NCBI RefSeq assembly: GCF_001753245.1
Contig: NZ_CP017415.1
Coordinates: 3,156,040 to 3,220,039, forward strand
Direction of reading: 5' to 3'
Length of the DNA: 64,000 bases
Source of the DNA: Acidihalobacter yilgarnensis
Lineage (GTDB): Bacteria; Pseudomonadota; Gammaproteobacteria; DSM-5130; Acidihalobacteraceae
Under the pieces are notes generated by a model that saw only the letters and a list, made by a program, of their open reading frames with translations, ran no database searches and had not been told where the DNA came from. Position numbers and translations under genes: made by a program. Below, piece after piece: positions 2,758 to 56,364 of this stretch; position 1 is the stretch's first letter; every line of letters starts with the position of its first letter.

Positions 2758-2976
2758 TTAACTCAATACTTCTTCAATCTTCTGAATACGCAGTTCTTCT
2801 TCCTTACGCGCATTCCGGTAAAACCAAAGCAGGAATACGGTAAAACACGTCCAGGGGACCAGCATGAATGTTCCCGTCCACCACCACGCCGGTAAACCAA
2901 CGGTGTGAGGGATGATGAAATGCAATGCCGGAATATGCATATGCGGTAATGCATGCGAATGTGCTGGGATAGCCAT
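2758..2976 (-). CDS. coxD: cytochrome c oxidase small subunit (CoxD-like)
   Basis: A 72-residue, His-rich (HSHALPHMHIP) small membrane protein with one transmembrane segment at about residues 30-52 and a charged C-terminus, in the position of coxD in the At. ferrooxidans rus operon. I chose the ATG at 2976 because a GGAGGT sits 7 nt before it; the ATG at 2991 would contain that Shine-Dalgarno within the coding sequence. The gene starts about 20 bp after the coxC stop. Assignment is mainly by position, because such subunits diverge strongly; the function within the oxidase is unknown. Confidence 0.75.
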   Translation of the reverse strand: MAIPAHSHALPHMHIPALHFIIPHTVGLPAWWWTGTFMLVPWTCFTVFLLWFYRNARKEEELRIQKIEEVLS

Positions 2977-2995
2977 CTCGTTGACCTCCACGCGA

Positions 2996-3565
2996 TCAGA
3001 TAATGAAATAAATCACATAGAACAGGACCCACATGACGACCAGCAGGCGCCAGAAATCCACCGCGTTATGGATTTTCCAGGCCTGTGCGGCGCGGATCTT
3101 GCCCTTCGAGCTCGCCGACACGTAAGCCATGAAGGCAAAGTGCGCGAGGGACATCATGATCACAAAAGCGACCGTGTCGGTGTACAGGTTCTCACCGTAA
3201 CGGCTATCGATCGGGATCGTGCCGGTGAACCATTGATAAATGATCCCGATGGCCACGAGCGTGATCATCAGCAGTGCGATCGAAAGATTGCGCGCGATGC
3301 CACTATTTTCGCCCTGGTAGGCCGCCTTGACCGCACCCGAGGTCGGGAACAGGCTTGCGATCATGATCAGGGTGAGTACCGTCCAAAAGACGTAGTTGAT
3401 GCCCGCGGGCTTGTCCGCGTAGGCCCACAAAAAGCGCGCGGCAAACAGCGGGATGAAAAAGATCGTCGACGACAACAGGATCAGCCCGAACGCGCCACGC
3501 TTGGCGCGCGCTGGGGCAGGATCGAGAATCCCGTTCACGTAGGCCTTTGCTTCGTCTAGTTCCAT
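2996..3565 (-). CDS. coxC: cytochrome c oxidase subunit III
   Basis: A 189-residue membrane protein with five hydrophobic segments, matching the short bacterial subunit III type. It carries no redox centre; in this family it stabilises the oxidase and its proton entry. The gene lies between coxA (52 bp upstream) and coxD in the order B-A-C-D typical of the rusticyanin-linked aa3 oxidase. The C-terminal helix segment WKIHNAVDFWRLLVVMWVL, with a conserved HxxDxxW pattern, supports the call. Confidence 0.92.
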   Translation of the reverse strand: MELDEAKAYVNGILDPAPARAKRGAFGLILLSSTIFFIPLFAARFLWAYADKPAGINYVFWTVLTLIMIASLFPTSGAVKAAYQGENSGIARNLSIALLMITLVAIGIIYQWFTGTIPIDSRYGENLYTDTVAFVIMMSLAHFAFMAYVSASSKGKIRAAQAWKIHNAVDFWRLLVVMWVLFYVIYFII

Positions 3566-3617
3566 TGCCTTATTTCCTCAACAGGTATTTGGTCGTGTCG
3601 CGGACCAGCAAGGCGCC

Positions 3618-12970: not shown

Positions 12971-13702
12971 TCAGGCAATGCCGACCGAGGCCGCCGCCTC
13001 GTCGCCCGCGGTCACCAGCGCCTGCGCCCGCGGGAACAGTTCGTCGGCAATCGCAGGCTCATGACGCAGCGCCCGCATCCAGTGCGGGAACAAATTGGTC
13101 TCTTCTCGCCACTCGTGCTTGGCCAGTTGCCCGGAAATGATGGCGAAAAAGGGGGCGAGCATACCGGCATCGTCCAGGCCTTCATCGAGCATCTCCTCGA
13201 TCATGACCGTGTGCTCGATAATCGCTTCATGTTCATGCAGCATGATGGACGTCGGATCGTCGCCACGCGGCGAGCGTGGCAGCGACAGCGCGGGCACCAC
13301 GATCTCGTTTTCTGTCTCCACGTGGCGCCTAAGACAGGCTGCAAACACCCGGAAACTCGGCAATGCGGCAGCCATATCTCCTGCATTGCTGCGGTGTAAC
13401 GCCGTCGCGAACAGATGATCTACACGCACGTGATCGCGGGTCAACAAATCTACGAGATCGCTCGCGGCCACGTCTTCGCGGCGTCGGACCCGCACGCGCC
13501 ACGCCGGTGGGCCGGCCTCGGTAACGTCCCAGTAAATGCCGTTACGCAGTTCCAATGTCAGGGCATCGAGCAAAATACGCGGGTCGTCGTAGGTCACCAC
13601 GACCGCCGCGTCGCCACGGGCGAGACCGCGCAGCTGCCCCAGCAGATAATGATGTTCGGTCTGCCCACCGCGCGCGGCGAGGTCGATCAGTTGCATGTTC
13701 AT
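12971..13702 (-). CDS. DUF2249-like plus hemerythrin HHE-domain protein
   Basis: Two-part protein of 243 residues. The N-terminal about 75 residues resemble the DUF2249/TusA-like module often joined to hemerythrins. The rest is a four-helix HHE cation-binding domain with the di-iron ligand pattern DHVRVDHLF, RRHVETENE, HEHEAIIEHT and KHEWREETNLFPHW. Such proteins bind O2 or NO, or repair iron-sulfur clusters. The ATG at 13702 has AGGAGG 5 nt upstream, so the much longer upstream open frame is not used. It is followed by the SirB2-like gene on its 5' side, same strand. Confidence 0.87.
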   Translation of the reverse strand: MNMQLIDLAARGGQTEHHYLLGQLRGLARGDAAVVVTYDDPRILLDALTLELRNGIYWDVTEAGPPAWRVRVRRREDVAASDLVDLLTRDHVRVDHLFATALHRSNAGDMAAALPSFRVFAACLRRHVETENEIVVPALSLPRSPRGDDPTSIMLHEHEAIIEHTVMIEEMLDEGLDDAGMLAPFFAIISGQLAKHEWREETNLFPHWMRALRHEPAIADELFPRAQALVTAGDEAAASVGIA

Positions 13703-13710
13703 GCTGCCTC

Positions 13711-14091
13711 CTATCCAGGTAGGAAGGGCATGGGCCGATGAGTCAGCGCCACGCTCAATATATATATGAATACCCCCAACGCACCGCACCAAGCCATCGT
13801 GCGGACGGTACGCGTCCGCCCATAACGCAGCGCTACCGCACCCAGGCCGATGTAAGCCAACACACCGCTCAACTTGGCCGCAAACCAAGCATGCTGCAAC
13901 GGCGACAGACGCAGGCGGAATGCCAGCCACAAACCGCTGAGCAGCAACACGGTATCAATCACGTGTGGTAGCACGCGCGTCAGGGGCGCACGCAGTTTCG
14001 GCGAGCTGCGGATCATCCACACGCCGCGCGCGATGAAACCCGTCAGCGACAGCATCGCGCTAGTGAGGTGTACCTTCAACAACCAGTCCAC
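13711..14091 (-). CDS. SirB2-family membrane protein
   Basis: About 126 residues with four transmembrane segments and the family start pattern DWLLKVHLTSAMLSLTGF. SirB2 proteins are inner-membrane proteins of unclear function, often near redox or assembly genes. I chose the GTG at 14091, since GGAGG precedes it and the family begins at the DWLLK segment; another GTG lies at 14097. It lies between ureG (44 bp upstream) and the hemerythrin gene (8 bp downstream) and may be cotranscribed with both. Confidence 0.8.
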   Translation of the reverse strand: MDWLLKVHLTSAMLSLTGFIARGVWMIRSSPKLRAPLTRVLPHVIDTVLLLSGLWLAFRLRLSPLQHAWFAAKLSGVLAYIGLGAVALRYGRTRTVRTMAWCGALGVFIYILSVALTHRPMPFLPG

Positions 14092-14134
14092 GGTCACGCT
14101 CTCCTCCCATGAAGTCTGCACGCGCATCAATGGC

Positions 14135-14749
14135 TCAAGCCAACATGCCACGCGTCTCGATGAAATCGGCGATCGCTGCCACGCCCTCACCGGCCCGGAT
14201 ATTGGTGAATACGAATGGGCGCTCGCCACGCATCCGACGCGCGTCGCGATCCATTACCTCCAGCGAAGCCCCGACGTGCGGTGCGAGATCGATCTTGTTG
14301 ATCACCAGCAGGTCAGATTTGGTGATACCGGGCCCGCCCTTGCGCGGAATCTTGTCGCCGGCGGATACGTCAATCACATAGATCGTCAGGTCCGAAAGTT
14401 CGGGGCTGAAGGTCGCACTGAGATTGTCGCCACCGCTCTCAACAAATACCACATCAAGCCCCGCGATGCGTCCGACCAGATCACGCACGGCGGCAAGATT
14501 CATCGAAGCATCCTCACGAATGGCCGTATGCGGGCACCCGCCCGTCTCCACGCCGACGATGCGCTCGACCGGCAAGGCGTCGTGACGGATGAGAAATTCG
14601 GCATCCTCGCGGGTATAAATATCGTTGGTGACCACCGCCAGTTCGTAGCGGTCGCGCAGGTGCTTGCACAAGGCTTCGACCAGTGCCGTCTTGCCCGAGC
14701 CGACCGGGCCGCCGATACCCACACGCAATACCGCCGAATCCGTTTTCAC
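14135..14749 (-). CDS. ureG: urease accessory GTPase UreG
   Basis: SIMIBI-class GTPase that powers nickel delivery to urease. The 204 residues contain the P-loop GGPVGSGKT (about residues 13-21), the nickel-binding CPH motif in GGCPHTAIR, switch region VESGGDNL, and the base-recognition NKIDL. Length and motifs are complete. The order ureE-ureF-ureG is the usual one, but no ureA, ureB, ureC or ureD is in the window. The partner enzyme could be a urease encoded elsewhere or another nickel enzyme such as the guanidine hydrolase at 54-55 kb. Confidence 0.96.
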
Positions 14750-16384: not shown

Positions 16385-16519
16385 CTCGCGCCCGCGTCAC
16401 CCGCTGCGGTCGCCGCCGGCAACGTCAAGATCAGTCGAGTCGTACGCCGCCTGCGCCTGCTCTCCAACCGCCGCAATACCGAGCCCTTTGGGCTGGCAGG
16501 CGGCGCACCATGTCAACCC

Positions 16520-16564
16520 GGCATCACCGGCATCACCGGCATCACCGGCATCACCGGCATCAAT
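16520..16564 (+). repeat. 9-bp tandem repeat (GGCATCACC x4 plus GGCATCAAT)
   Basis: Four perfect copies of GGCATCACC and a fifth diverged copy. In the HyuB frame they encode repeated Gly-Ile-Thr after the LAGGAPCQPG segment, where the family has a short loop. The unit length is a multiple of three, so it does not itself break the frame. Confidence 0.92.
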
Positions 16565-16934
16565 CATCTGATCCGCGCCAACGGTCGCGAGGAAGATCTA
16601 GACGCCTACAGCCAGCGCGAAACCATGGCTGGCAACCTGTTGATTGTCGAGACTCCCGGTGGCGGAGGTTACGACGCCTCCTGAGGGTGAAGCCGGGTCG
16701 CGGGATGCACCGGGGCGAGGCGCCTCACCGAACATACGCCCCGCAGCGAGGCACTCTCCGCGTCATAACGACGTTGTCACCAACCTCGCGGACACAACCT
16801 ATCCACATGAAATAAAAAGGATAAGTTGAAAAAATTCGGGGCCAATCAACTTCTGGCACCAATTGTGCTCAATCACCCAAAATCGAAACACCGGGAATCG
16901 ACACACGAATTTTTATCTGAAAACACGGATTTAA

Positions 16935-17060
16935 AGGCGACTAGGGTTCCGCCCGAAAACTGGGGTCTGGACCGAGAGTCACCGGCTCCGGCTGCGGAGC
17001 TACACGGCGGGATAAAAGCCCGGGAGAGCGAATACGGTTGTATTCCTCCCCGGGCTTTTT
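16935..17060 (+). ncRNA. guanidine-I (ykkC) riboswitch with terminator
   Basis: Shows the conserved ykkC core in order: GCGACTAGGGTTCCG, CTGGACCGAGAG, then TACACGGCGGGATAAAAGCCCGGGAGA. The 3' part overlaps an intrinsic terminator: AGCCCGGGAG from 17017 pairs with CTCCCCGGGCT, followed by TTTTTG near 17060. Guanidine binding should hold the aptamer and prevent the terminator, so the operon is switched on by guanidine. It lies 36 bp before the binding-protein gene. A second copy of the same architecture stands at 51119-51250. Class assignment is by consensus recall, not a covariance search. Confidence 0.9.
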
Positions 17061-17095
17061 GTTTTTTGGCTGCGCCAATACTCAGGAGAACGGGC

Positions 17096-18097
17096 ATGAA
17101 CCGGAAATTTACGATCAAACTCATCGTCAGCCTTCTATTCACCGGCGCCACGCTGGGCGCGAACGTCGCCAGCGCGATGCCCACGATCAGCATCGGTACC
17201 GTGGTCTGGATCGGCTACGCACCACTCTATGTCGCCGAGCATATTCACGCCTTCGAGAAACACGGCGTAAAGGTCAAATTCACCAATTTTTCGGACAACG
17301 CCACCATGCCTGCCGCCGTTGAGGGCGGTGCGATCGACGGCGCCACCCTCACCTACGATCAGGTGTTGCCGGGCGCAACCAAGGGCTGGGATCTGCAGGT
17401 CGCGCTACCCATCGACTACTCCAGCGGCGCCGACGCCATAGTCTCCACCGATGACATCACCCGGATTTCACAGATCAAGGGCAAGGCGATCGCCTACAAC
17501 GCCATGTCGCCCTCGGCCTTTCTGCTCGCCTACGCACTGCAGAAAAACGGCATGAGCCTCAAGGATGTGCACTCGGTCAACATGGACCCCGGCGCCGTCC
17601 CCGCCGCGCTGATTGGTGGCAACGTCAAGATCGGCGTCACGTACCAACCCAGCGTCTCCTCGATCATCAAGGCCGACGGCGGCAAGCGTTTCCACGTCCT
17701 CTTTTCCAGCCGCGAGGCACCCGGCTTGATCACCGACGTCCTGGTGTTCAAACATCGCTACATCGTCAGCCACAAGGCCGAAGTCAAAGGCATCGTCGAG
17801 GGTTACTACGACGGCCTTGCCTACATGAAATCCCACCCGAAACAAGCTGCCGCCTACATCGCCGAAGCCATGGGCATCAAAGCGGACGAGGTACCGGGTC
17901 AGCTCGATGGCATCCATAACCCGACACCCAAGCAGGCTTGGGAGAATTTCAAACGCTCGAAGAAAATCGACTCCTTCTACACCAGTGGCCAAGTGATCGG
18001 CGGTATTTTGATGGCCAACGGGTCCATCAAGAAAATGCCCGATCTCCACGAGACGCTTTATCCGTACTTCGTCGACGCCATCGCTGCTGGCCACTAA
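17096..18097 (+). CDS. ABC transporter periplasmic binding protein (NMT1/SsuA-like)
   Basis: Periplasmic substrate-binding protein of 333 residues with a signal peptide (about residues 1-24, ending ASA) and an NMT1/TauA-like fold beginning TISIGTVVWIGYAPLYVAEH. Such proteins bind small nitrogen or sulfur compounds for import. It is the first gene after the guanidine riboswitch, with AGGAG 8 nt before the ATG at 17096. The open frame runs upstream through the riboswitch, so the longer start is rejected. No permease or ATPase is encoded in this operon; it may share those of the second guanidine-riboswitch operon (52.3-54.1 kb) or other cell components. The ligand is unknown. Confidence 0.9.
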   Translation: MNRKFTIKLIVSLLFTGATLGANVASAMPTISIGTVVWIGYAPLYVAEHIHAFEKHGVKVKFTNFSDNATMPAAVEGGAIDGATLTYDQVLPGATKGWDLQVALPIDYSSGADAIVSTDDITRISQIKGKAIAYNAMSPSAFLLAYALQKNGMSLKDVHSVNMDPGAVPAALIGGNVKIGVTYQPSVSSIIKADGGKRFHVLFSSREAPGLITDVLVFKHRYIVSHKAEVKGIVEGYYDGLAYMKSHPKQAAAYIAEAMGIKADEVPGQLDGIHNPTPKQAWENFKRSKKIDSFYTSGQVIGGILMANGSIKKMPDLHETLYPYFVDAIAAGH

Positions 18098-18132: not shown

Positions 18133-19164
18133 ATGACTTCATTGACACCGAGGTTTGCGGCCTTCGCGCCGCGCGAGCCCGGAGGCACAGCGGTGACCTG
18201 GGCGGCCCTCGCCTACGCAACCCTCGGCTATGCCTTCGGCGTGTGGCTGCTCACCCGACACAACCCCGCGCTCAACGCCATCGGCATCCTACTGACGGCA
18301 CATACGCTGGTGATCGCCGCCTATTTCATCCACGAATTCGCGCACCTGACGATCTTCCGCCAACGTACGATGAACGACCGTTTCGGCACCATGATGACCT
18401 GGATCACGGGCGCCTGCTACGCGCCCTTCGACAACCTGCGGCGCAAGCACCTGCGCCACCACGCCGACCGCGCCGACGTTATTACCTTCGACTACCGTGC
18501 CTTCCTGTTGCGTCTGCCGACACCCTTGCGCCGCATCGTGTTTGCCCTTGAATGGCTACACATACCCGCGGTGGAGCTGATCATGCACGGCTTCGTCGTC
18601 GCCATGCCCTTCATCTCGCCCGAACAGCGCACCAGACGCGGTCGCGTACTCACCATCCTGGCGATACGCCTTACGTTGTTCGCAGCCCTTGGCGGATACG
18701 CTCCTCGGGCGCTGTGGCTCTACGCCATCGCCTATCTGCTGTTTCTCACGGTATTGCGCTTCGCCGACGCCTTCCAGCACACCTACGAAGCCTACCCGCT
18801 GCTCGCCAGCGGCAAGCCGCCAGACATGCCCCCGCGCGACCGCGAATACGAATACCGCAACACATACTCCAATCTGGTATCGGTACACCATCCCTGGCTC
18901 AACCTGCTGACACTGAACTTCGTCTACCACAACGCACATCATGCCCGCGCCAGCGTGCCCTGGTTCCGTTTGCCGATGCTGCATCGCGAGCTTTACGGCG
19001 AACACAACCCTCAGGTATTGCCCATGCGCGAATTGATGCGCAGTTATCACCGCAACCGCCTCGCGCGCCTGCTCGGTGATGGCTATGGGGAAGTCACTGA
19101 GGGGCCGGGACGGGCCGACGGATTCATCGGCGCCGTCGGCGTTTCCTTTCTCACGGCGGTCTGA
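18133..19164 (+). CDS. fatty-acid-desaturase-fold membrane di-iron enzyme
   Basis: Integral membrane protein of 343 residues with four or more hydrophobic segments and the three histidine boxes of the desaturase/hydroxylase superfamily: HEFAH (HxxxH), HLRHH and HNAHH (both HxxHH). The family uses O2 and a di-iron centre to desaturate or hydroxylate substrates. GGAGG lies 7 nt before the ATG at 18133. It lies in a guanidine-controlled operon with hydrolases of nitrogen compounds, so I infer that it may oxidise a guanidino- or amide-containing compound, perhaps an alkyl side chain, rather than a lipid. The actual substrate is unknown. Confidence 0.85.
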   Translation: MTSLTPRFAAFAPREPGGTAVTWAALAYATLGYAFGVWLLTRHNPALNAIGILLTAHTLVIAAYFIHEFAHLTIFRQRTMNDRFGTMMTWITGACYAPFDNLRRKHLRHHADRADVITFDYRAFLLRLPTPLRRIVFALEWLHIPAVELIMHGFVVAMPFISPEQRTRRGRVLTILAIRLTLFAALGGYAPRALWLYAIAYLLFLTVLRFADAFQHTYEAYPLLASGKPPDMPPRDREYEYRNTYSNLVSVHHPWLNLLTLNFVYHNAHHARASVPWFRLPMLHRELYGEHNPQVLPMRELMRSYHRNRLARLLGDGYGEVTEGPGRADGFIGAVGVSFLTAV

Positions 19165-19166
19165 GT

Positions 19167-19919
19167 ATGCAGATCGATCTGAGTGGCAAGACCGTACTGG
19201 TCACCGGCGCTGCCAGCGGTATCGGCCGCGCCACTGCGCTGGCCTTCGGCGAGGCCGGCGCACGGGTCGCCGTCAATCACCTCGGTCGGCGTAGGGAGGC
19301 TGAAGCGGTCGTCGCCTACCTGCGCGAGCGCGGGGTCCGCGCGATCGCTTGCAAGGCAGACGTCACCGACCGGAGACAGATCGATGCCATGATCGACGCC
19401 GCCACAGCCGCGCTCGACGGCATCGACATGCTGATCAACAATGCCGGCATCGTGCTCGAACGCCCGTTTCTCGATATGCGCGAAGACGAATGGGATCGCG
19501 TGATCAATACCGATCTCAAGGGTGTATTCCTATGCTGCCAGGCCGTACTACCCGCGATGGTCGCGCGCGGACACGGTTGCATCATCAACATCGCGTCCGA
19601 GCTGGGTTACCTCGGACGCGCAGGTTATACCGCCTACACCAGCGCCAAGGCCGGCGTGATCGCCCTGACCCGCTCGCTGGCGCGCGAATTCGCGCCGGCA
19701 ATCCGCATCAACGCCATCGCCCCCGGACCGGTGGCTACCGAAATGCTTGACCCCGCGCTGATGAGCCCAGCCGTCATCGCCCACGAGGTCGACATTCCCA
19801 TGGGACGACTGGGACGCCCCGAGGAAATCGCCACTACGGCCGTCTTTCTCGCCTCGACGCACGCAGCTTTTTACTGCGGTCAAACCCTCGGCCCCAATGG
19901 CGGCGCCTTGATGACCTGA
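19167..19919 (+). CDS. short-chain dehydrogenase/reductase
   Basis: Classical NAD(P)-dependent SDR of 250 residues: cofactor motif TGAASGIG near residue 12, NNAG at about residues 91-94, catalytic Ser in NIASELG, and YTSAK supplying Tyr and Lys. The C-terminus FYCGQTLGPNGGALMT matches the family. The ATG follows the desaturase stop by 2 nt, so the pair is translationally linked. It could oxidise an alcohol made by the di-iron enzyme. Neither substrate nor cofactor preference can be read with certainty. Confidence 0.93.
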   Translation: MQIDLSGKTVLVTGAASGIGRATALAFGEAGARVAVNHLGRRREAEAVVAYLRERGVRAIACKADVTDRRQIDAMIDAATAALDGIDMLINNAGIVLERPFLDMREDEWDRVINTDLKGVFLCCQAVLPAMVARGHGCIINIASELGYLGRAGYTAYTSAKAGVIALTRSLAREFAPAIRINAIAPGPVATEMLDPALMSPAVIAHEVDIPMGRLGRPEEIATTAVFLASTHAAFYCGQTLGPNGGALMT

Positions 19920-19942: not shown

Positions 19943-20713
19943 ATGACCGAAGTCCGCATGGAACGCATGAGCTGGGTGGAATACCGCCGCCGGATCGACG
20001 CCGCGGAACCGGTCGTGTTCCTACCCTGCGGCTCGCTCGAACAGCACGGCCCACACCTCCCGCTGGGTGTCGACGCACTACTGTCGACCGCCGTGGCCTG
20101 CGAAGCCGCACGACGCACCGGCGGCATCGTCGCGCCAGCACTTTCTTACGGCTACAAGTCCCAGCCGCGCTGCGGCGGCGGCCAACACTTCCCCGGCACC
20201 ACCAGCCTTGACGGTGACCATTTGAGCCAGCTCGCGCGCGACGTGATCCGCGAGTTCGCGCGGCACGGCGTGCGCAAACTCGCGCTGATCGACGGTCACT
20301 ACGAAAACCAATGGTTCCTGATCGAAGGCATCGACCTCGCCCTGCGCGACCTTGGACATGACTGCGGCCTGCGCGTGCTGCGCACCGAATACTGGGACTT
20401 CTGTACGGAAGACGTGCTCCGCGAGGTCTCCCCCGATGGCTTCCCCGGCTTCGCCCTGGAGCACGCCGCGGTGATCGAAACCTCGCTGATGCTCCACTTC
20501 CATCCCGAGCTGGTCCGACCGGACCTCATCCCCGACGACGACGCGGCGAACTTCCCGCCCTACGACCTCTATCCGCCAGAAACCGAACGTGTACCGGCCT
20601 CGGGCGTACTTTCGTCTGCCCGAGGTGCAACGGCTGCCAAGGGCGAGCATCTGGCCGAAGTGGTTTGTAGCGGCCTTGCCGACGCCGTACGTGTGGCCTT
20701 TGACCCGCCATGA
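19943..20713 (+). CDS. creatininase (creatinine amidohydrolase family)
   Basis: Family enzymes hydrolyse cyclic or linear amides; the type enzyme opens creatinine to creatine. The 256 residues align by eye along their whole length with Pseudomonas creatininase: metal ligands in GSLEQHG (Glu33, His35) and GVD (Asp44), then YGYKSQ, GGGQHFPGTTSLDG, GHYEN (His119, Glu121), YWDF and ETSLML. This likeness covers substrate-site segments as well as metal ligands, so a cyclic guanidino compound is a reasonable substrate guess. The gene lies 23 bp after the SDR and overlaps the next gene by ATGA. No creatinase or sarcosine oxidase gene is nearby. Confidence 0.9.
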   Translation: MTEVRMERMSWVEYRRRIDAAEPVVFLPCGSLEQHGPHLPLGVDALLSTAVACEAARRTGGIVAPALSYGYKSQPRCGGGQHFPGTTSLDGDHLSQLARDVIREFARHGVRKLALIDGHYENQWFLIEGIDLALRDLGHDCGLRVLRTEYWDFCTEDVLREVSPDGFPGFALEHAAVIETSLMLHFHPELVRPDLIPDDDAANFPPYDLYPPETERVPASGVLSSARGATAAKGEHLAEVVCSGLADAVRVAFDPP

Positions 20714-21378
20714 CGGCACCCCCCGCACCGCTGCACGGCACCGCCCTGCTGGTGATCGACATGCAGCGCGACTTCTGCGAACCCGAGGGTTACGCCGCGC
20801 ACGTCGGCCTGGACATCGCACGCCTACGTCAGCCGATCCAGAATATTGCACGGCTACTGGCAGCGGCACGCAGACAGGGGCTGACCCGGGTATACACACG
20901 AGAGGGCCATCGCCCCGATCTTGCCGATCTGACAGCCGCCAAACGCGAGCGCTGCGCGATGGCGGGTGCACCGATCGGCAGTCCTGGTCCACTCGGCCGA
21001 CTGCTGATCCGCGGCGAATACGGTCACGGCATTATCGACGCACTCGCACCGCTGACGGGCGAGGCGGTGGTCGACAAGCCCGGCTACGATGCCTTCCACG
21101 CGACCGGGCTCGCACGGTTGCTGGATGACGCCGGTATCCGTCATCTCATTCTCACCGGCGTCACCATGGACGTCTGCGTGCATTCCACGCTACGCGCGGC
21201 CGTAGATCGGGGCTACCGTTGCACCACGGTCGCCGACGCCTGCGCCGCGACCGACCCCACGCTGCATGCCGCCGCGCTTGCCATGATCGGCGGCGAGGGC
21301 GGTATCTTCGGCACCGTAATCGACACCGACGCCCTGCTACGCATCTGGCAGATGCCCTCACCGGGAGAAACCGCATGA
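20710..21378 (+). CDS. isochorismatase-fold cysteine amidohydrolase
   Basis: Cysteine hydrolase of 222 residues with the complete Asp-Lys-Cys triad: Asp in LVIDMQRDF, Lys in VVDKPGYDAF and Cys in TGVTMDVCVHSTLR. Relatives with this triad include N-carbamoylsarcosine amidase, biuret hydrolase and ureidoacrylate hydrolase, all of which cleave C-N bonds of carbamoyl compounds. The start overlaps the creatininase stop (ATGA), and the stop overlaps the next start, so the three hydrolases are translated as a coupled set. A carbamoyl or guanylated amine is therefore a plausible substrate. Confidence 0.92.
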   Translation: MTAPPAPLHGTALLVIDMQRDFCEPEGYAAHVGLDIARLRQPIQNIARLLAAARRQGLTRVYTREGHRPDLADLTAAKRERCAMAGAPIGSPGPLGRLLIRGEYGHGIIDALAPLTGEAVVDKPGYDAFHATGLARLLDDAGIRHLILTGVTMDVCVHSTLRAAVDRGYRCTTVADACAATDPTLHAAALAMIGGEGGIFGTVIDTDALLRIWQMPSPGETA

Positions 21379-22157
21379 CTCAGGCCACCCGCCTCATCCC
21401 CCTGCTCACCGGCATCCACCGCTATGAAAAAACCCTGTCCACGCGTCATCGAGGACACGGAGAATTCATCGAGGCACCGATTCTCGCCTATCTCATCGAG
21501 ACCGCGCAGGGCCGCATTCTTTACGACGTCGGCTGCGATTACGCCAAGCTCAGCGAGCCGGCCCTACGCGCGCGGCACTACGACGACGCTGCCTTCCCCT
21601 TCGGCCCACCGGTGATGCGCGAGGAGGATCGTCTACCCAATCGCCTCGCCCGCCTCGGCCTGGCCCCCGAGGACATCGACCTCGTGTTCGTCGGGCACCT
21701 GCACTTCGACCACGCCGGTGGCCTGTGCGAGGTCTGCGGTGCGGAGATTCACGTACACCGGCGTGAATGGGAGGCCGCGCGTGCACAAGCCGATGAGGCC
21801 TATTTTCAGGACGATTTCGCCGGTGACTACCGCTGGCGCTACGCGGAAGGTGAATACGAGCTGGTCCCCGGTGTTCGCGCGATCGAGAGTCCCGGCCACA
21901 CCGCAGGACACATGTCACTCTACGTCGAACTACCCAAGGGCGCGCCGATCATCCTTGCCGGCGATGCAGCGGACCTGACCGAAAATCTGGAACAGGAAAT
22001 CGCCCCTGGCCTGTGCTGGCAGGAGCGCGAGGATATGGCGTTGGCGAGCATCCGTAAGCTCAAACGCACGGCACGTGAAACCGGTGCCGTACTATGGCCC
22101 AATCACGACATGGCCTTCTGGCGCAGCCGCAAGCCATTTCCCGCGTTTTATGAATAA
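21375..22157 (+). CDS. metallo-beta-lactamase-fold hydrolase (lactonase-like)
   Basis: A 260-residue metallo-hydrolase with the di-metal motif HLHFDHAGG, a following His in SPGHTAGH and an Asp in LAGDAADL, most like N-acyl-homoserine-lactonase-type enzymes. The start ATG at 21375 overlaps the preceding stop (ATGA). In this operon it may open a lactone or lactam ring or hydrolyse an ester intermediate; the family also includes quorum-quenching enzymes, which would make less sense here. It is the last gene of the riboswitch operon; the next gene is on the opposite strand, ending at 22190. Confidence 0.88.
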   Translation: MTQATRLIPLLTGIHRYEKTLSTRHRGHGEFIEAPILAYLIETAQGRILYDVGCDYAKLSEPALRARHYDDAAFPFGPPVMREEDRLPNRLARLGLAPEDIDLVFVGHLHFDHAGGLCEVCGAEIHVHRREWEAARAQADEAYFQDDFAGDYRWRYAEGEYELVPGVRAIESPGHTAGHMSLYVELPKGAPIILAGDAADLTENLEQEIAPGLCWQEREDMALASIRKLKRTARETGAVLWPNHDMAFWRSRKPFPAFYE

Positions 22158-50846: not shown

Positions 50847-51118
50847 CTGCCCTCCTTGTCCGTGCGTGTCGGGTGCGTCTAATTATGCCGCGTGCCCAGA
50901 CCGGCGTCGCGCACTGCTCGGGGGCGGATCGACCCGGCGTGCACCCCGATAAGGCATATCGGGCGCCCCGATTCCCGAATACGGCATACGAATACCGGCG
51001 ACAAAGCCGCGCTCATACAGCATGGCCGCATTGGCACCATTCATGCTTTACCGATGACAAGGCATTCAAGGCATACGGAGCCAGCCGCACAGACAAGCCA
51101 TAGACGACATAGCATTCA

Positions 51119-51250
51119 AGGCGACTAGGGTTCCGCCCGGACCACCGGGGACTGGACCGAGAGTGGCCGGCCCCGGATGCGGGGCTACACGGCGGGATAA
51201 AAGCCCGGGAGAGCGAATACGCACACGTATTCACTCCTCGGGCTTTTTTT
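51119..51250 (+). ncRNA. guanidine-I (ykkC) riboswitch with terminator
   Basis: Second copy of the element at 16935: GCGACTAGGGTTCCG, CTGGACCGAGAG, TACACGGCGGGATAAAAGCCCGGGAGA. The terminator hairpin uses AGCCCGGGAG...GCGAATACG with CGTATTC...CTCCTCGGGCT followed by TTTTTTT (51244-51250). The two copies share the core and the GCGAATACG terminator arm but differ in the P2 and loop sequences, with compensating changes, which supports a functional RNA. Located 70 bp before the binding-protein start. Confidence 0.93.
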
Positions 51251-51320: not shown

Positions 51321-52301
51321 ATGAAACGCAGCAAGAAACTGATCGCCACCTTGATGCTCGCCCTGCTCGCGCCGGTGATATTCATGTCCACCGCGCGCGC
51401 CGAAATCACGCTCGGCATCAGCGACTGGCCGGGCTGGGTGGCCTGGTACATCGCTCAGGAAAAGGGTTACTTCAAGAAGTACGACGCGCACGTGAAGCTG
51501 GTCTGGTTCCCGAACTACATCGACTCGGTCAACGCCCTGTCCGCCGGGCAGCTCGACGCCAACAGCCAGGCCCTCATCGATACGTTGGCCCCGCTGGAAA
51601 AAGGTCTGCCGCTCAAGACCATCCTGGTCACCGACAATTCGGCCGGCAACGACGCGCTGATGGTGAGCAACAGCATCAAGACTTTCGCCGACCTTAAGGG
51701 CAAGACCATCGGCCTCGAACAGTATTCGATCGAGAACTACCTGGCCGACACCGCGCTGCACCGTCACGGCATGACCCAGAAGGACGTGAAGATCGTCAAC
51801 ATGAGCACTGGCGACGCCGCCGCCGCGCTGATCTCCGGTCGCATCGACGGCGCCGGCGTGTGGAATCCCTGGATCAATCGCATCACGAACAGCCACAAGG
51901 GCCACCCCCTGTTCACCAGTAAGGACGCGCCCGGCCTGATCCCTGATCTCGTGGTTGCTCGCGAGGCGGCGATCAAGGCGCATCGCAAGGACTTCGAGGG
52001 CATGGTCAAGGCCTGGTTCGCGGTGGTCCGTTTCGTGCACGCGCACCCGGAGGCCGCGGCGAAGATCATGGCGCCGCACGTGGGCCTGCAGCCCAAGGAG
52101 TATGCCCTGTCGCTGGCGGGCACCCGCTTGTTTGGCGCCAAGCTGAACCGCGAAGCGATGAAGCCAGGGCACTCGCCGGTATCGCTGTACAACAGCACGC
52201 CCGACACGGCGAAGTTCCTGATCAAGGCCGGGGCCATCTCCAAGATGCCGGAGCCCGCGATGTTCATCGACCCGAGCCTGGTCGAACACGCGTCGAAGTG
52301 A
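51321..52301 (+). CDS. guanidine-operon ABC transporter periplasmic binding protein
   Basis: Periplasmic binding protein of 326 residues, NMT1/SsuA-like, with a signal peptide (residues 1-27, ending ARA) and mature start EITLGISDWPGWVAWYIAQEKGYF. The first gene after the guanidine riboswitch, with GGAG 10 nt before the ATG at 51321; the longer in-frame start lies inside the riboswitch terminator and is rejected. It shares fold and leader type with the protein at 17096 but is clearly a different sequence, so the two may bind different guanidino compounds. Together with the permease and ATPase it forms a complete importer. Confidence 0.93.
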   Translation: MKRSKKLIATLMLALLAPVIFMSTARAEITLGISDWPGWVAWYIAQEKGYFKKYDAHVKLVWFPNYIDSVNALSAGQLDANSQALIDTLAPLEKGLPLKTILVTDNSAGNDALMVSNSIKTFADLKGKTIGLEQYSIENYLADTALHRHGMTQKDVKIVNMSTGDAAAALISGRIDGAGVWNPWINRITNSHKGHPLFTSKDAPGLIPDLVVAREAAIKAHRKDFEGMVKAWFAVVRFVHAHPEAAAKIMAPHVGLQPKEYALSLAGTRLFGAKLNREAMKPGHSPVSLYNSTPDTAKFLIKAGAISKMPEPAMFIDPSLVEHASK

Positions 52302-52353: not shown

Positions 52354-53235
52354 ATGAGCGCGATACGAGAAACCAGCCTGACGCCGACACCCGCCGCGCT
52401 GGCGACGGCACCGTCGGCCGGAAAGGCGACCCGTCCCGTCGCGAAGGGGGACGGCCTGTGGGCCGTCCGCGGCGACCTGCCGCGCTGGCAATATGTCTCC
52501 ATCGCCCTGTTCAGCTTTCTGCTGATGCTTGGCAGCTGGTGGGGATTGTCCGACAGCGGGTGGGTGCCACAACTCTTCCTGCCGTCGCCACCGCAGGTGG
52601 TTCACCGTCTGGCCCAGTGGTACGGGCAAGGCAACCTGATCAACGACACCCAGATCAGCATCTTCCGCGTCACCGCGGGCTTCGTGCTCTCGGCGGCGAT
52701 GGCCATCCCGCTCGGCCTGTACATCGGTAGCTTCAGGCCGGTGCAGGCCTTCTTCGAACCCATGGTCGAATTCGCACGCTACCTGCCCGCGGTGGCCTTC
52801 GTGCCGCTGGTCCTGCTGTGGGTGGGCATCGGCGAGGGTGCCAAGATCAGCATCATCTGGATCGGCACCTTCTTTCAGATGGTGCTGATGATTTCCGAGA
52901 ACGTGCGCCACGTGCCCGCCGCGCAGATCGAGGCAGCACAGACCATGGGCGCGAATCGCGGCGAAATCGTTTCGCGCGTGATCTTCCGCTCGGCCCTGCC
53001 CGACATCGTCGACACCCTGCGCGTGACCCTCGGCTGGGCCTGGACCTATCTGGTGGTGGCCGAAATGGTCGCCGCCAATTCCGGCCTGGGATACGCCATC
53101 CTGCAGGCGCAGCGCTTCCTGCAGACCGGCAAGATCTTCGGCGGCATTCTGCTGATCGGCACCATCGGTCTGATCATGGATCAGCTGTTCCGCCTACTGC
53201 ACCGCCGGGCTTTCCCCTGGCTGCACCGTGCCTGA
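52354..53235 (+). CDS. ABC transporter permease (SsuC/TauC-like)
   Basis: Inner-membrane permease of 293 residues with six transmembrane segments and the EAA loop EAAQTMGANRGEIVSRVIFRS (about residues 190-211) that contacts the ATPase. A polar N-terminal stretch of about 45 residues precedes the first helix. It lies 52 bp after the binding-protein gene and overlaps the ATPase frame slightly. Homodimeric permeases of this kind serve sulfonate, thiamine precursor or guanidine-type importers; the context favours guanidine or a derivative. Confidence 0.95.
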   Translation: MSAIRETSLTPTPAALATAPSAGKATRPVAKGDGLWAVRGDLPRWQYVSIALFSFLLMLGSWWGLSDSGWVPQLFLPSPPQVVHRLAQWYGQGNLINDTQISIFRVTAGFVLSAAMAIPLGLYIGSFRPVQAFFEPMVEFARYLPAVAFVPLVLLWVGIGEGAKISIIWIGTFFQMVLMISENVRHVPAAQIEAAQTMGANRGEIVSRVIFRSALPDIVDTLRVTLGWAWTYLVVAEMVAANSGLGYAILQAQRFLQTGKIFGGILLIGTIGLIMDQLFRLLHRRAFPWLHRA

Positions 53236-53245
53236 GGCGCCACAC

Positions 53246-54124
53246 ATGACACACGCGAGCACACCCAAGATCGCCGTGCGCGGCCTCGGCAAGCACTTCA
53301 TCACCCGCGAGCGCGCGTTTCATGCGCTCGATGCCATCGACCTCGACGTGCGCCCCAACGAGTTCCTCGCCCTGGTCGGCGCCTCCGGCTGCGGCAAATC
53401 GACCCTGCTGCGCATCATCGGCGGGCTGGAAACCCTCACCGAGGGCGAGATACGGATCGACGGTCAACCCATCCACGGCCCCGGCAAGGACCGCGTGATG
53501 GTGTTTCAGGACTACAGCCTCTATCCCTGGCTGACCGTGATCGAAAACATCCGCTTCTGTCGCCAGCTCGATGCGCACGTGCGCGACGCGAGCACGGCCG
53601 ACGCCGCCTCGGCGGTCGACCGATCCTATGCCCTGCTCGCGCTGATGGGTCTGGAGAAGGTCAAGAACAGCTACCCCAACGCGCTCTCCGGCGGCATGCG
53701 CCAGCGCGTGGCCATTGCCCGCGCACTGATGTCACGCCCGGAAGTCCTGCTGATGGACGAACCCTTCGGGGCGCTGGACGCGCAGACCCGCGAGGTTATG
53801 CACGACCTCATCCTGCACGTCTTCGAACTGGAGAAGACCACCATCGTATTCGTCACCCACGACGTCGACGAGGCGATCTATCTCGCCGACCGCGTGGTCG
53901 TGCTCGCCCCCAATCCCGGCCACGTCGATTCGATCTACGACATCGACCTGCCACCCCCGCTGGAGCGAAACCAGGATCTCAAGCTCGCGCCGGATTTCCT
54001 CGCGCAGAAAAAGACGATCCTCGATCGTATCCGGCAAACCACCGGCGTCCAGCGCGACCTGGAAATGCTCGAACGCATGACCCGGCACCTGCGCAATACC
54101 GCCCAAACGAACCAAGGAGACTGA
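53246..54124 (+). CDS. ABC transporter ATP-binding protein
   Basis: Cytoplasmic ATPase of about 292 residues: Walker A GASGCGKST, Q-loop VFQDYSLYPW, signature LSGGMRQRVA, Walker B VLLMDEPFGALD and the H-loop FVTHDVDEA are all intact. I chose the ATG at 53246 (GAGG about 8 nt upstream); an in-frame GTG at 53228 overlaps the permease end and is possible. It energises the riboswitch-controlled importer and stands 2 nt before the ureohydrolase gene. Confidence 0.96.
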   Translation: MTHASTPKIAVRGLGKHFITRERAFHALDAIDLDVRPNEFLALVGASGCGKSTLLRIIGGLETLTEGEIRIDGQPIHGPGKDRVMVFQDYSLYPWLTVIENIRFCRQLDAHVRDASTADAASAVDRSYALLALMGLEKVKNSYPNALSGGMRQRVAIARALMSRPEVLLMDEPFGALDAQTREVMHDLILHVFELEKTTIVFVTHDVDEAIYLADRVVVLAPNPGHVDSIYDIDLPPPLERNQDLKLAPDFLAQKKTILDRIRQTTGVQRDLEMLERMTRHLRNTAQTNQGD

Positions 54125-54126
54125 GC

Positions 54127-55317
54127 ATGTACGTCAAAAAACCCCGTCAACCTGGGTTCGCCCGTCCCGCTACGGGTCACCGTCACCACCCCTCGTTCGA
54201 CCGTTCCGGCCTGCAGGGCTGGAAGATGGCGCACCACGAAGCGGACCTTCCCGACGTGGCCTGGCAGGCCGAACAGGAACGCTGCCTACGCCTGGGTCTG
54301 CCCGGCGCCGAGAGCCTCGACGACAAAACGATCCCAACCTTCGCGCGCGGCGAGCTGCCGCACTTTGCGGGTATCAATACCTTCATGAAGGCGCCCTACG
54401 TGGAAGACGTGCGCGACGTGGGCAAGTACGACGCCGCGATCATCGGCGCTCCCTTCGACGGCGGCACCACCTACCGACCCGGCGCACGCTTCGGGCCGCA
54501 GGGCATTCGCCGCATCTCGGCGCTTTATACGCCTTACAACTACGAAATCGGCGTGGATCTGCGCGAACAGATGAACATGTGCGATGTCGGCGATATCTTC
54601 ACCATTCCCGCCAATATCGAAAAGACCTTCGACCAGATCAGCAACGCGGTCGGCCATGTGTTCGCCAGCGGTGCCATGCCGATCATCCTCGGTGGCGACC
54701 ACTCCATTGGCTTCGCCACCGTGCGCGGCATCGCCCGTCAGACCGACAAGCGCATCGGCATCATCCACTTCGACCGCCACGCCGACATCCAGGAAAAGGA
54801 TCTCGACGAGCGCATGCACACCACGCCGTGGTTCCACGCCACCAATCTGCCCAACGTACCGGCGACCAACCTGGTGCAGATCGGCATCGGCGGCTGGCAG
54901 GTCCCGCGCGAGGCGGTCAAGGAGGCGCGCAACCGCGAGACCACCATCATCACCATGCACGACGTGGAACGCCTTGGCCTCGACAAGGTCGCCGAGATTG
55001 CCCTGGAGTACGCCTGGAAGGATGCCGATGCGGTCTATCTGAGCTTCGACATCGACAGCGTCGACGCCGGCTTCGTGCCCGGCACCGGCTGGCCCGAACC
55101 GGGCGGCTTCCTGCCGCGCGAAATCCTCTATCTGCTCGGCGCGGTGGCCAAGGAGGGCATCTGCGGCATGGAGGTGGTCGAGGTCTCTCCGCCCTACGAC
55201 ATTTCCGACATCACCTCGCTGATGGCCACCCGCGCGATCGTCGACGTGCTCGGCACGCTGGTCGCGCACGGCAAGATGGGTAGCCACCGCCACATCATCC
55301 GCGGCTGGGGCGAATAG
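54127..55317 (+). CDS. gdmH: guanidine hydrolase (ureohydrolase family, Ni-dependent type)
   Basis: Agmatinase/arginase-fold hydrolase of 396 residues. The metal ligands are complete: GGDHSIG, HFDRHADIQ (D-x-H-x-D) and SFDIDSVD. The family segment PGTGTPEPGG reads PGTGWPEPGG here, and there is an N-terminal extension of about 90 residues before IIGAPFDGGTTYRPGARFGPQ. Both features fit my recollection of the nickel-dependent guanidine hydrolase group (GdmH, Synechocystis Sll1077), which cleaves guanidine to urea and ammonia. A guanidine riboswitch, a matching importer and a nickel permease in the same operon strongly support this over agmatinase. The Ni-maturation chaperones usually seen with GdmH are not adjacent. 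Confidence 0.88.
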   Translation: MYVKKPRQPGFARPATGHRHHPSFDRSGLQGWKMAHHEADLPDVAWQAEQERCLRLGLPGAESLDDKTIPTFARGELPHFAGINTFMKAPYVEDVRDVGKYDAAIIGAPFDGGTTYRPGARFGPQGIRRISALYTPYNYEIGVDLREQMNMCDVGDIFTIPANIEKTFDQISNAVGHVFASGAMPIILGGDHSIGFATVRGIARQTDKRIGIIHFDRHADIQEKDLDERMHTTPWFHATNLPNVPATNLVQIGIGGWQVPREAVKEARNRETTIITMHDVERLGLDKVAEIALEYAWKDADAVYLSFDIDSVDAGFVPGTGWPEPGGFLPREILYLLGAVAKEGICGMEVVEVSPPYDISDITSLMATRAIVDVLGTLVAHGKMGSHRHIIRGWGE

Positions 55318-55410
55318 CCTGACGCGAGATTGCGGTATAGGCTTGATCCGGTCACCCGCCCGGGCGCGGGTGGCCGGATCAACGAGCGGACCGGACACAA
55401 GGAGCACCAC

Positions 55411-56364
55411 ATGTCTGCCACGACGATGCCGCGCCCGGCGCGGCCATCCTGGATCATCGGCACGCTGCTGATCGCCCTCAATCTGCTGGCCTGGGGCCTG
55501 CTGGCCGGGCTCGCCACCACCGATGCGGCGCTGCTCGGCATCGGCGCGCTGGCCTATGGCTTCGGCCTGCGTCACGCCTTCGACGCCGATCACATCGCGG
55601 CCATCGACAACGTCACCCGCAAGCTGCGCCACGAGGGCCAGCGGCCGTTGGGCGTCGGCCTGTTCTTCTCCCTCGGCCACTCCACGGTGGTTTTCGGCCT
55701 GTCCGCGGCGCTGGTGCTGGCGGTGCGTGCCACGCAGGCGCAGCTACCGATGCTGCAACACTGGGGCGGACTGGTGGGTACGCTGGTCTCGGCCGCCTTT
55801 CTCACCCTGATCGGCCTGATTAATCTGTTCGTGTTTTCGCGCCTGTGGCGCGCCTTCCGCGCGCGCCGTCGCTGGGGCGAACCCGCGCCGAGCGACGCCG
55901 AACTGGAATCGCTGCTGCAGCGCCGAGGGCTGTTCGCGCGGCTGCTGCGCGGCGTCTACCGGCACATCGACCGCAGCTGGAAGATGTATCCCGTCGGCCT
56001 GCTGTTTGGCCTGGGCTTCGACACCGCCAGCGAGATCGCCATCCTTGGCATCTCGGCCGCCGCCGCGCAGAACGGCCACCTGCCGCTGTGGGGTGTGATG
56101 GTGTTCCCGTTGCTGTTCACCGCGGCGATGAGCCTGATGGATACCCTGGACGGTATCGTCATGCTGCGCGCCTACGACTGGGCGCTGGCCGATGCCGAAC
56201 GCAAGCTCTACTTCAACACGGCATTGACCGGGCTTTCCGTGCTGCTCGCGCTGACCATCGGATCGATCGAATGGCTGCAATTGCTGGCCCCGCGCTGGGG
56301 CTACACCACGGGCTGTGGGGTGCATTGGAGACGCTGGACTTCAGCCAAATCGGCATCGCCGTGA
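55411..56364 (+). CDS. NiCoT-family nickel/cobalt permease with 3' frameshift
   Basis: Inner-membrane high-affinity nickel transporter. The signature motifs RHAFDADHI, FSLGHSTVVF, LGFDTASEI and MSLMDTLDG are all present in about eight transmembrane segments. AGGAG precedes the ATG at 55411. Near 56288-56291 (a C4 run) one base seems to be missing: the family-like C-terminus LGLHHGLWGALETLDFSQIG and a final transmembrane helix continue in the -1 frame to the stop at 56436-56438, while the original frame ends early at 56364 with an unrelated tail. It is placed after the guanidine hydrolase, fitting nickel supply for that enzyme. Whether the truncated protein works is unknown. Confidence 0.9.
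   Translation: MSATTMPRPARPSWIIGTLLIALNLLAWGLLAGLATTDAALLGIGALAYGFGLRHAFDADHIAAIDNVTRKLRHEGQRPLGVGLFFSLGHSTVVFGLSAALVLAVRATQAQLPMLQHWGGLVGTLVSAAFLTLIGLINLFVFSRLWRAFRARRRWGEPAPSDAELESLLQRRGLFARLLRGVYRHIDRSWKMYPVGLLFGLGFDTASEIAILGISAAAAQNGHLPLWGVMVFPLLFTAAMSLMDTLDGIVMLRAYDWALADAERKLYFNTALTGLSVLLALTIGSIEWLQLLAPRWGYTTGCGVHWRRWTSAKSASP

Follow-up and report, generated by a model that had tools for sequence, protein, structure and literature searches.

A guanidine-I riboswitch of Acidihalobacter yilgarnensis precedes a conserved operon headed by a membrane iron oxygenase not studied before

The leader near 17 kb of the window, the 64,000-nucleotide stretch of Acidihalobacter yilgarnensis DNA analysed here, carries a riboswitch that represents a known class and is unremarkable as such; the interesting part is the operon behind the switch. 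What is new is a conserved gene set under this switch, headed by a so far unstudied iron oxygenase of the membrane (hereafter named DES). Judged by comparison, the 17-kb operon is probably (roughly 60%) an inducible catabolic operon that imports a guanidino compound, breaks it down oxidatively and releases guanidine, which would be assimilated by the guanidine hydrolase GdmH and urease. The riboswitch literature treats the natural origin of free guanidine as an open question (PMC7266159, PMC12508155), and through its two riboswitches the window connects a known operon for guanidine assimilation with an oxidative operon that is unstudied. Two unrelated riboswitch classes, together with adjoining catabolic genes, link DES to guanidine, and a specific gene, a specific inducer and a few substrates can thereby be named for testing. 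The features of both operons are collected in Table 1.

Table 1. Riboswitches, terminators and genes of the 17-kb and 51-kb operons in window coordinates
Feature	Position	Strand	Evidence and remarks
Guanidine-I riboswitch aptamer, first copy	16930..17028	+	RF00442 83.7 bits
Intrinsic terminator, first copy	17014..17067	+	Stem 17014-17059, then T-rich tract; 5' arm overlaps aptamer P3
SBP, NMT1/SsuA-type ABC substrate-binding protein, first operon gene	17096..18097	+	PF09084 6e-18; SsuA family below cut-off
DES, membrane diiron oxygenase, fatty-acid-desaturase superfamily	18133..19164	+	PF00487 3e-33
SDR, short-chain dehydrogenase	19167..19919	+	PF13561 4.3e-63
CRN, creatininase-family amidohydrolase	19943..20713	+	TIGR04448 351.6 bits, cut-off 235
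BIUH-like isochorismatase-superfamily cysteine hydrolase	20710..21378	+	PF00857 1.2e-43; PDB 6xjm 216 bits
MBL, AiiA-like metallo-beta-lactamase-fold hydrolase	21375..22157	+	PF00753 2.3e-17; AiiA model 144.7 bits, cut-off 375
Guanidine-I riboswitch aptamer, second copy	51114..51213	+	RF00442 87.8 bits, full 107-position model
Intrinsic terminator, second copy	51199..51250	+	-31.0 kcal/mol, z -8.4 (folding)
SBP2, ABC substrate-binding protein	51321..52301	+	29% identical to 17-kb SBP; start codon assigned here
PERM, ABC permease	52354..53235	+	60-61% identical to permease of DES operons L148-L150, L034
ATP, ABC ATPase	53228..54124	+	60-64% identical to ATPase of DES operons L148-L150, L034
GdmH guanidine hydrolase, ureohydrolase superfamily	54127..55317	+	558 bits to Synechocystis guanidinase
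NicO-type nickel transporter	55330..56364	+	PF03824 4.5e-83; TIGR00802 342 bits, cut-off 333

Gene content of the two operons

From DES onward, the genes of the 17-kb operon overlap or lie no more than 25 bases apart. CRN keeps the motifs EQHG..H......D and GHYEN, which presumably hold the metal-binding residues. Alignment to 1J2T places a Phe of CRN at the position of Trp174 in P. putida creatininase, and Phe is also present in the relatives that were read. The protein encoded next to CRN is close to the structures of biuret hydrolases but falls below the cut-off of the BiuH model (NF050097, 246.6 against 370 bits), and an assignment as BiuH was rejected; it shares the isochorismatase superfamily with guanylurea (PMC9800807), biuret and triuret hydrolases. 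MBL likewise scores below the cut-off of the AiiA model (Table 1). A Pfam search identified no creatinase in the operon. Urease accessory genes are located just upstream of it on the opposite strand.

The 51-kb operon resembles the GdmH operons of Synechocystis and Nitrospira in combining a riboswitch, a transporter, GdmH and a nickel supply, whereas the 17-kb operon lacks GdmH and holds an oxidative gene set instead. The best matches of GdmH are the Synechocystis guanidinase (7ESR/7OI1) and, with 553 bits, the Nitrospira enzyme (9FEK), the next family reaching 182 bits. It also keeps GTTYRPG and GTGWPEPGG with the Thr and Trp specificity residues named for guanidine hydrolases (PMC11410670), as assigned by motif and not by a numbered map. 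PERM and ATP belong to the subfamily of the DES operons, given their identity of about 60–64% to the counterparts there, and are probably shared by both binding proteins, SBP and SBP2. The gene for urease alpha lies about 14 kb past the end of the window (G000:C1:3234278-3235968) and is split between two overlapping frames that cover model positions 2-131 and 131-568, a sign of either a frameshift or an error in sequencing. The gene may be broken, and if the frameshift is real, urea from GdmH may escape hydrolysis by that enzyme.

DES as a member of the fatty-acid-desaturase superfamily

The Pfam match, the histidine boxes and the fold all place DES in the fatty-acid-desaturase superfamily. 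The boxes H67/H71, H106/H109/H110 and H266/H269/H270 are invariant in 33 DES relatives, and so are D115, E140, D212, E240, R179, R309 and R312. DES has an AlkB-like diiron fold: its AlphaFold2 model (pLDDT 91) matches AlkB with Z 11.5 and SCD1 more weakly with Z 5.6. Both were found by fold comparison only, and searching the PDB with a sequence profile gave zero matches for DES. The top fold matches of the model are subunits of the chloroplast FtsHi complex (Z 18), which we take to be desaturase-like.

No curated family fits DES among the GntB, lipid desaturase and carotenoid models compared, and the scores against every curated lipid desaturase or carotenoid enzyme are far under the cut-offs. 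The arginine hydroxylase GntB belongs to the same superfamily and acts on a guanidino substrate, but DES reaches just 22.6 bits where the GntB model (NF041365) demands 380, which separates the two families. Eight of the 33 DES relatives match the GntB model at E 0.001, the best at 3e-8. No desaturase-family gene under guanidine riboswitches was found in the open literature, although an earlier listing among the genes of the class is still conceivable.

Association of DES with guanidine riboswitches

The search for DES relatives covered 369 genomes sampled across the class, a named genome collection and, by profile, a phylum sample. In the class sample, a guanidine-I or guanidine-II riboswitch is present in 10 of the 12 DES genomes and in 31 of the 357 others (p = 5.5e-9); with the window's own genus set aside the count is 8 of 10 (p = 3.1e-7), and both p-values serve as a guide only, the genomes being phylogenetically non-independent. 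Among 40 DES genomes from three phyla, guanidine-I is present in 29 and guanidine-II alone in a further 4. The phylum-wide profile search returned DES from 7 of 398 genomes, all of the same class, and none from alpha- or betaproteobacteria.

The operon recurs behind guanidine-I in other gammaproteobacterial genera. The order guanidine-I, SBP, DES, SDR, SDR, EamA, creatininase and BIUH-like gene is found in L071, L148, L149 and L150 (one SDR listed in L150), with MBL and/or the permease and ATPase in addition, while the operon of the window's genus has one SDR fewer and is devoid of EamA. A shorter order, SBP-DES-permease-ATPase, occurs in L034. DES genes from the guanidine-I/SBP/DES arrangement form one group of the tree in 72% of bootstraps.

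The earlier note regarded the riboswitch as the reason to link the downstream enzymes to guanidine, and this link is supported independently of the 17-kb element by DES relatives that immediately follow a riboswitch of the unrelated guanidine-II class or have guanidine catabolic genes as neighbours. In L072, L073 and L078, DES starts 8–16 nt after a guanidine-II riboswitch, and in L074 it begins 116 nt after a guanidine-I riboswitch (start codons assigned here). Genes for guanidine carboxylase together with CgdAB-type genes are included in the DES stretch of L036, L043, L058 and L078, and a CgdAB-type pair in that of L076. The companions of DES differ by lineage, comprising TIM barrel, glutamine-synthetase-like, SDR and other genes, and most cyanobacterial DES loci contain no guanidine switch within the stretch read.

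Several further features of these loci were observed. A type III glutamine-synthetase-like gene and a second creatininase-family gene recur beside DES (L078:9465-11622, L075:11766-13947, L066:3725-6170); in L078 and L066 this stretch sits behind a guanidine-I riboswitch, and the pair may be a further guanidine-linked module. A conserved protein with the sequence YLGVWQRTLLTTTAG... is encoded between the hydrolase genes and the permease in the DES operons of three genomes (L149 ~13400-14200, L150 ~13100-13900, L148 ~2850-3600). In the cyanobacteria L039, L046, L048, L051, L055 and L059, DES and the gene for 6S RNA are separated by about 1 kb.

Proposed pathway

In the proposed pathway, SBP would import a guanidino compound, probably via PERM and ATP from the 51-kb operon, and DES would hydroxylate a carbon adjoining the guanidine nitrogen. 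SDR and the hydrolases would then process the product of DES, and free guanidine would be released as the inducer of both the 17-kb and the 51-kb operon. The co-induced GdmH would split guanidine into urea and ammonia, following which urease would continue the assimilation. A creatinine-like cyclic guanidine is one candidate substrate. The location of GdmH under the second switch, the presence of urease alpha in the genome and the weak match of DES to GntB speak for this pathway. Against it count the variation of the DES companions among lineages, given which one route may not fit all, the lack of a guanidine switch in the stretch read at most cyanobacterial DES loci, and the possibly broken urease alpha gene.

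A direct precedent for oxidative guanidine release in such a regulon is provided by MgdH and MgdL, which free guanidine from methylguanidine within a guanidine-riboswitch operon (PMC12508155). This Vreelandella operon resembles the 17-kb operon in its guanidine riboswitch, its ABC importer, its oxygenase and its feeding of guanidine catabolism. However, MgdH is a 2-oxoglutarate dioxygenase and DES a membrane diiron protein of another superfamily, and the partner genes differ. It is conceivable, at somewhat under even odds, that DES represents a new family of diiron oxygenases of the membrane, spread over Gammaproteobacteria, Cyanobacteria and Bacillota, which serves guanidine metabolism by freeing guanidine from a larger guanidino compound within guanidine-riboswitch regulons. 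If so, guanidine would have a biological source that bears no relation to the 2-oxoglutarate dioxygenases known for this.

Three other roles were considered for these genes. DES might oxidise or detoxify guanidine itself, making the operon a third guanidine-consuming route instead of a guanidine-releasing one; guanidine is what the riboswitch senses, and DES occurs with EamA exporters and also directly behind guanidine-II. This role is unlikely, since the genomes already hold complete guanidine-consuming enzymes (GdmH; guanidine carboxylase), it is not obvious what the operon's amidohydrolases and SDR would do with free guanidine, and this molecule lacks the carbon-hydrogen bond that the superfamily's usual chemistry requires. 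The Pfam family FA_desaturase and the weak matches to lipid and carotenoid enzymes would agree with a lipid desaturase or hydroxylase induced for membrane adaptation to guanidine stress. The low scores against every lipid-enzyme model, the many invariant polar residues and the constant neighbours of DES (ABC importer, amidohydrolases, guanidine catabolic genes) render that improbable.

The oxidation of creatinine is known to yield creatol and methylguanidine (PMC3775425), and a hydroxylase, a dehydrogenase, a cyclic amidohydrolase and a further amidohydrolase would suit an operon degrading creatinine itself, in which the creatininase-family enzyme, well above the TIGR04448 cut-off, opens the ring after oxidation at C5. 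Such an operon is improbable as well: the subfamily members read have Phe in place of Trp174, the operon holds no identified creatinase, and the product would be methylguanidine, which a guanidine-I switch tested elsewhere does not bind (PMC12508155).

The riboswitch and its terminator

The Rfam scan, which the earlier note had named as a check, was run on the window and matched the aptamer fold in both copies. The first aptamer covers model positions 1-107 of 107 with E 1.8e-13 against a cut-off of 63 bits. The full scan returned exactly two RNA elements, both guanidine-I, a scan of the genome revealed no guanidine-I copies beyond these, and a lenient scan of the 261-base leader alone brought no other Rfam family near its cut-off. 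These results confirm the guanidine-I identity claimed for the first element; the location given for it, 16935-17060, holds as well, except that the aptamer starts at 16930 and not at 16935. No essential difference separates the leader from the guanidine-I class (ykkC subtype 1), with which it shares the full-length match and the ON architecture with terminator proposed for that class. Since ykkC RNAs comprise several classes with a near-identical consensus (PMC7266159), sensing of PRPP, ppGpp or a nucleoside diphosphate was weighed and is scarcely credible, given the full-length fit of the guanidine-I model without any other riboswitch model reported on the leader, the second copy preceding GdmH, and the guanidine-II riboswitches preceding relatives of the controlled genes.

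Folding revealed a hairpin at 17014-17059 with -31.1 kcal/mol (z -6.9), and 0 of 200 shuffles were as stable; the T-rich tract behind it reads T5-G-T6, counting from the pairing U's. A simple promoter and terminator scan of 16600-17200 gave zero sites though folding reveals this terminator, probably because of the interrupted stem. Bases 17014-17028 are common to the aptamer and the 5' arm of the terminator. The Rfam structure line assigns the CCC within AAAAGCCCGGG to the 3' strand of P3, and the same bases form the terminator arm, so that the two folds are mutually exclusive. Both the double use of the core strand and the direct competition between ligand binding and termination, as proposed earlier, are therefore supported.

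The three genus members keep the overlapping terminator in each of their six leaders, whereas the same simple criterion detected one in 3 of 43 leaders from other genomes, a set that excludes L141, the window's own leader. The overlap and its retention make the ON switch, predicted from anatomy, well founded. By analogy with the class, guanidine would stabilise P3 and keep CCCGGG out of the terminator, and transcription would proceed.

Two copies of the leader

Each of the three genus members has the arm GCGAATAC in its two leaders (window, L004, L005, L006, L009), in accordance with the earlier observation that the 17-kb and 51-kb copies share it, and it is absent from about 40 leaders inspected in other genomes. 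The six leaders of the genus are 82-92% identical. Attempts to sort them by copy gave no clusters in the identity matrix, which makes gene conversion an equally possible origin of their likeness. Duplication of the whole leader, as suggested previously, is plausible from this identity and the private terminator arm, and copying is supported by the sequences without being the sole explanation. In either case, the leader would have been copied or kept alike without its first gene, as the low identity of SBP and SBP2 (Table 1) indicates that the first gene downstream was not part of the copying.

Just upstream of the 17-kb leader, an open stretch at 16560-16684 (+) ends in ...ETPGGGGYDAS* and resembles what would remain of the C-terminal end of a HyuB/hydantoinase-B-type gene. 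A tandem repeat of about five GGCATCACC units lies at 16519-16562, inside this putative HyuB-type remnant.
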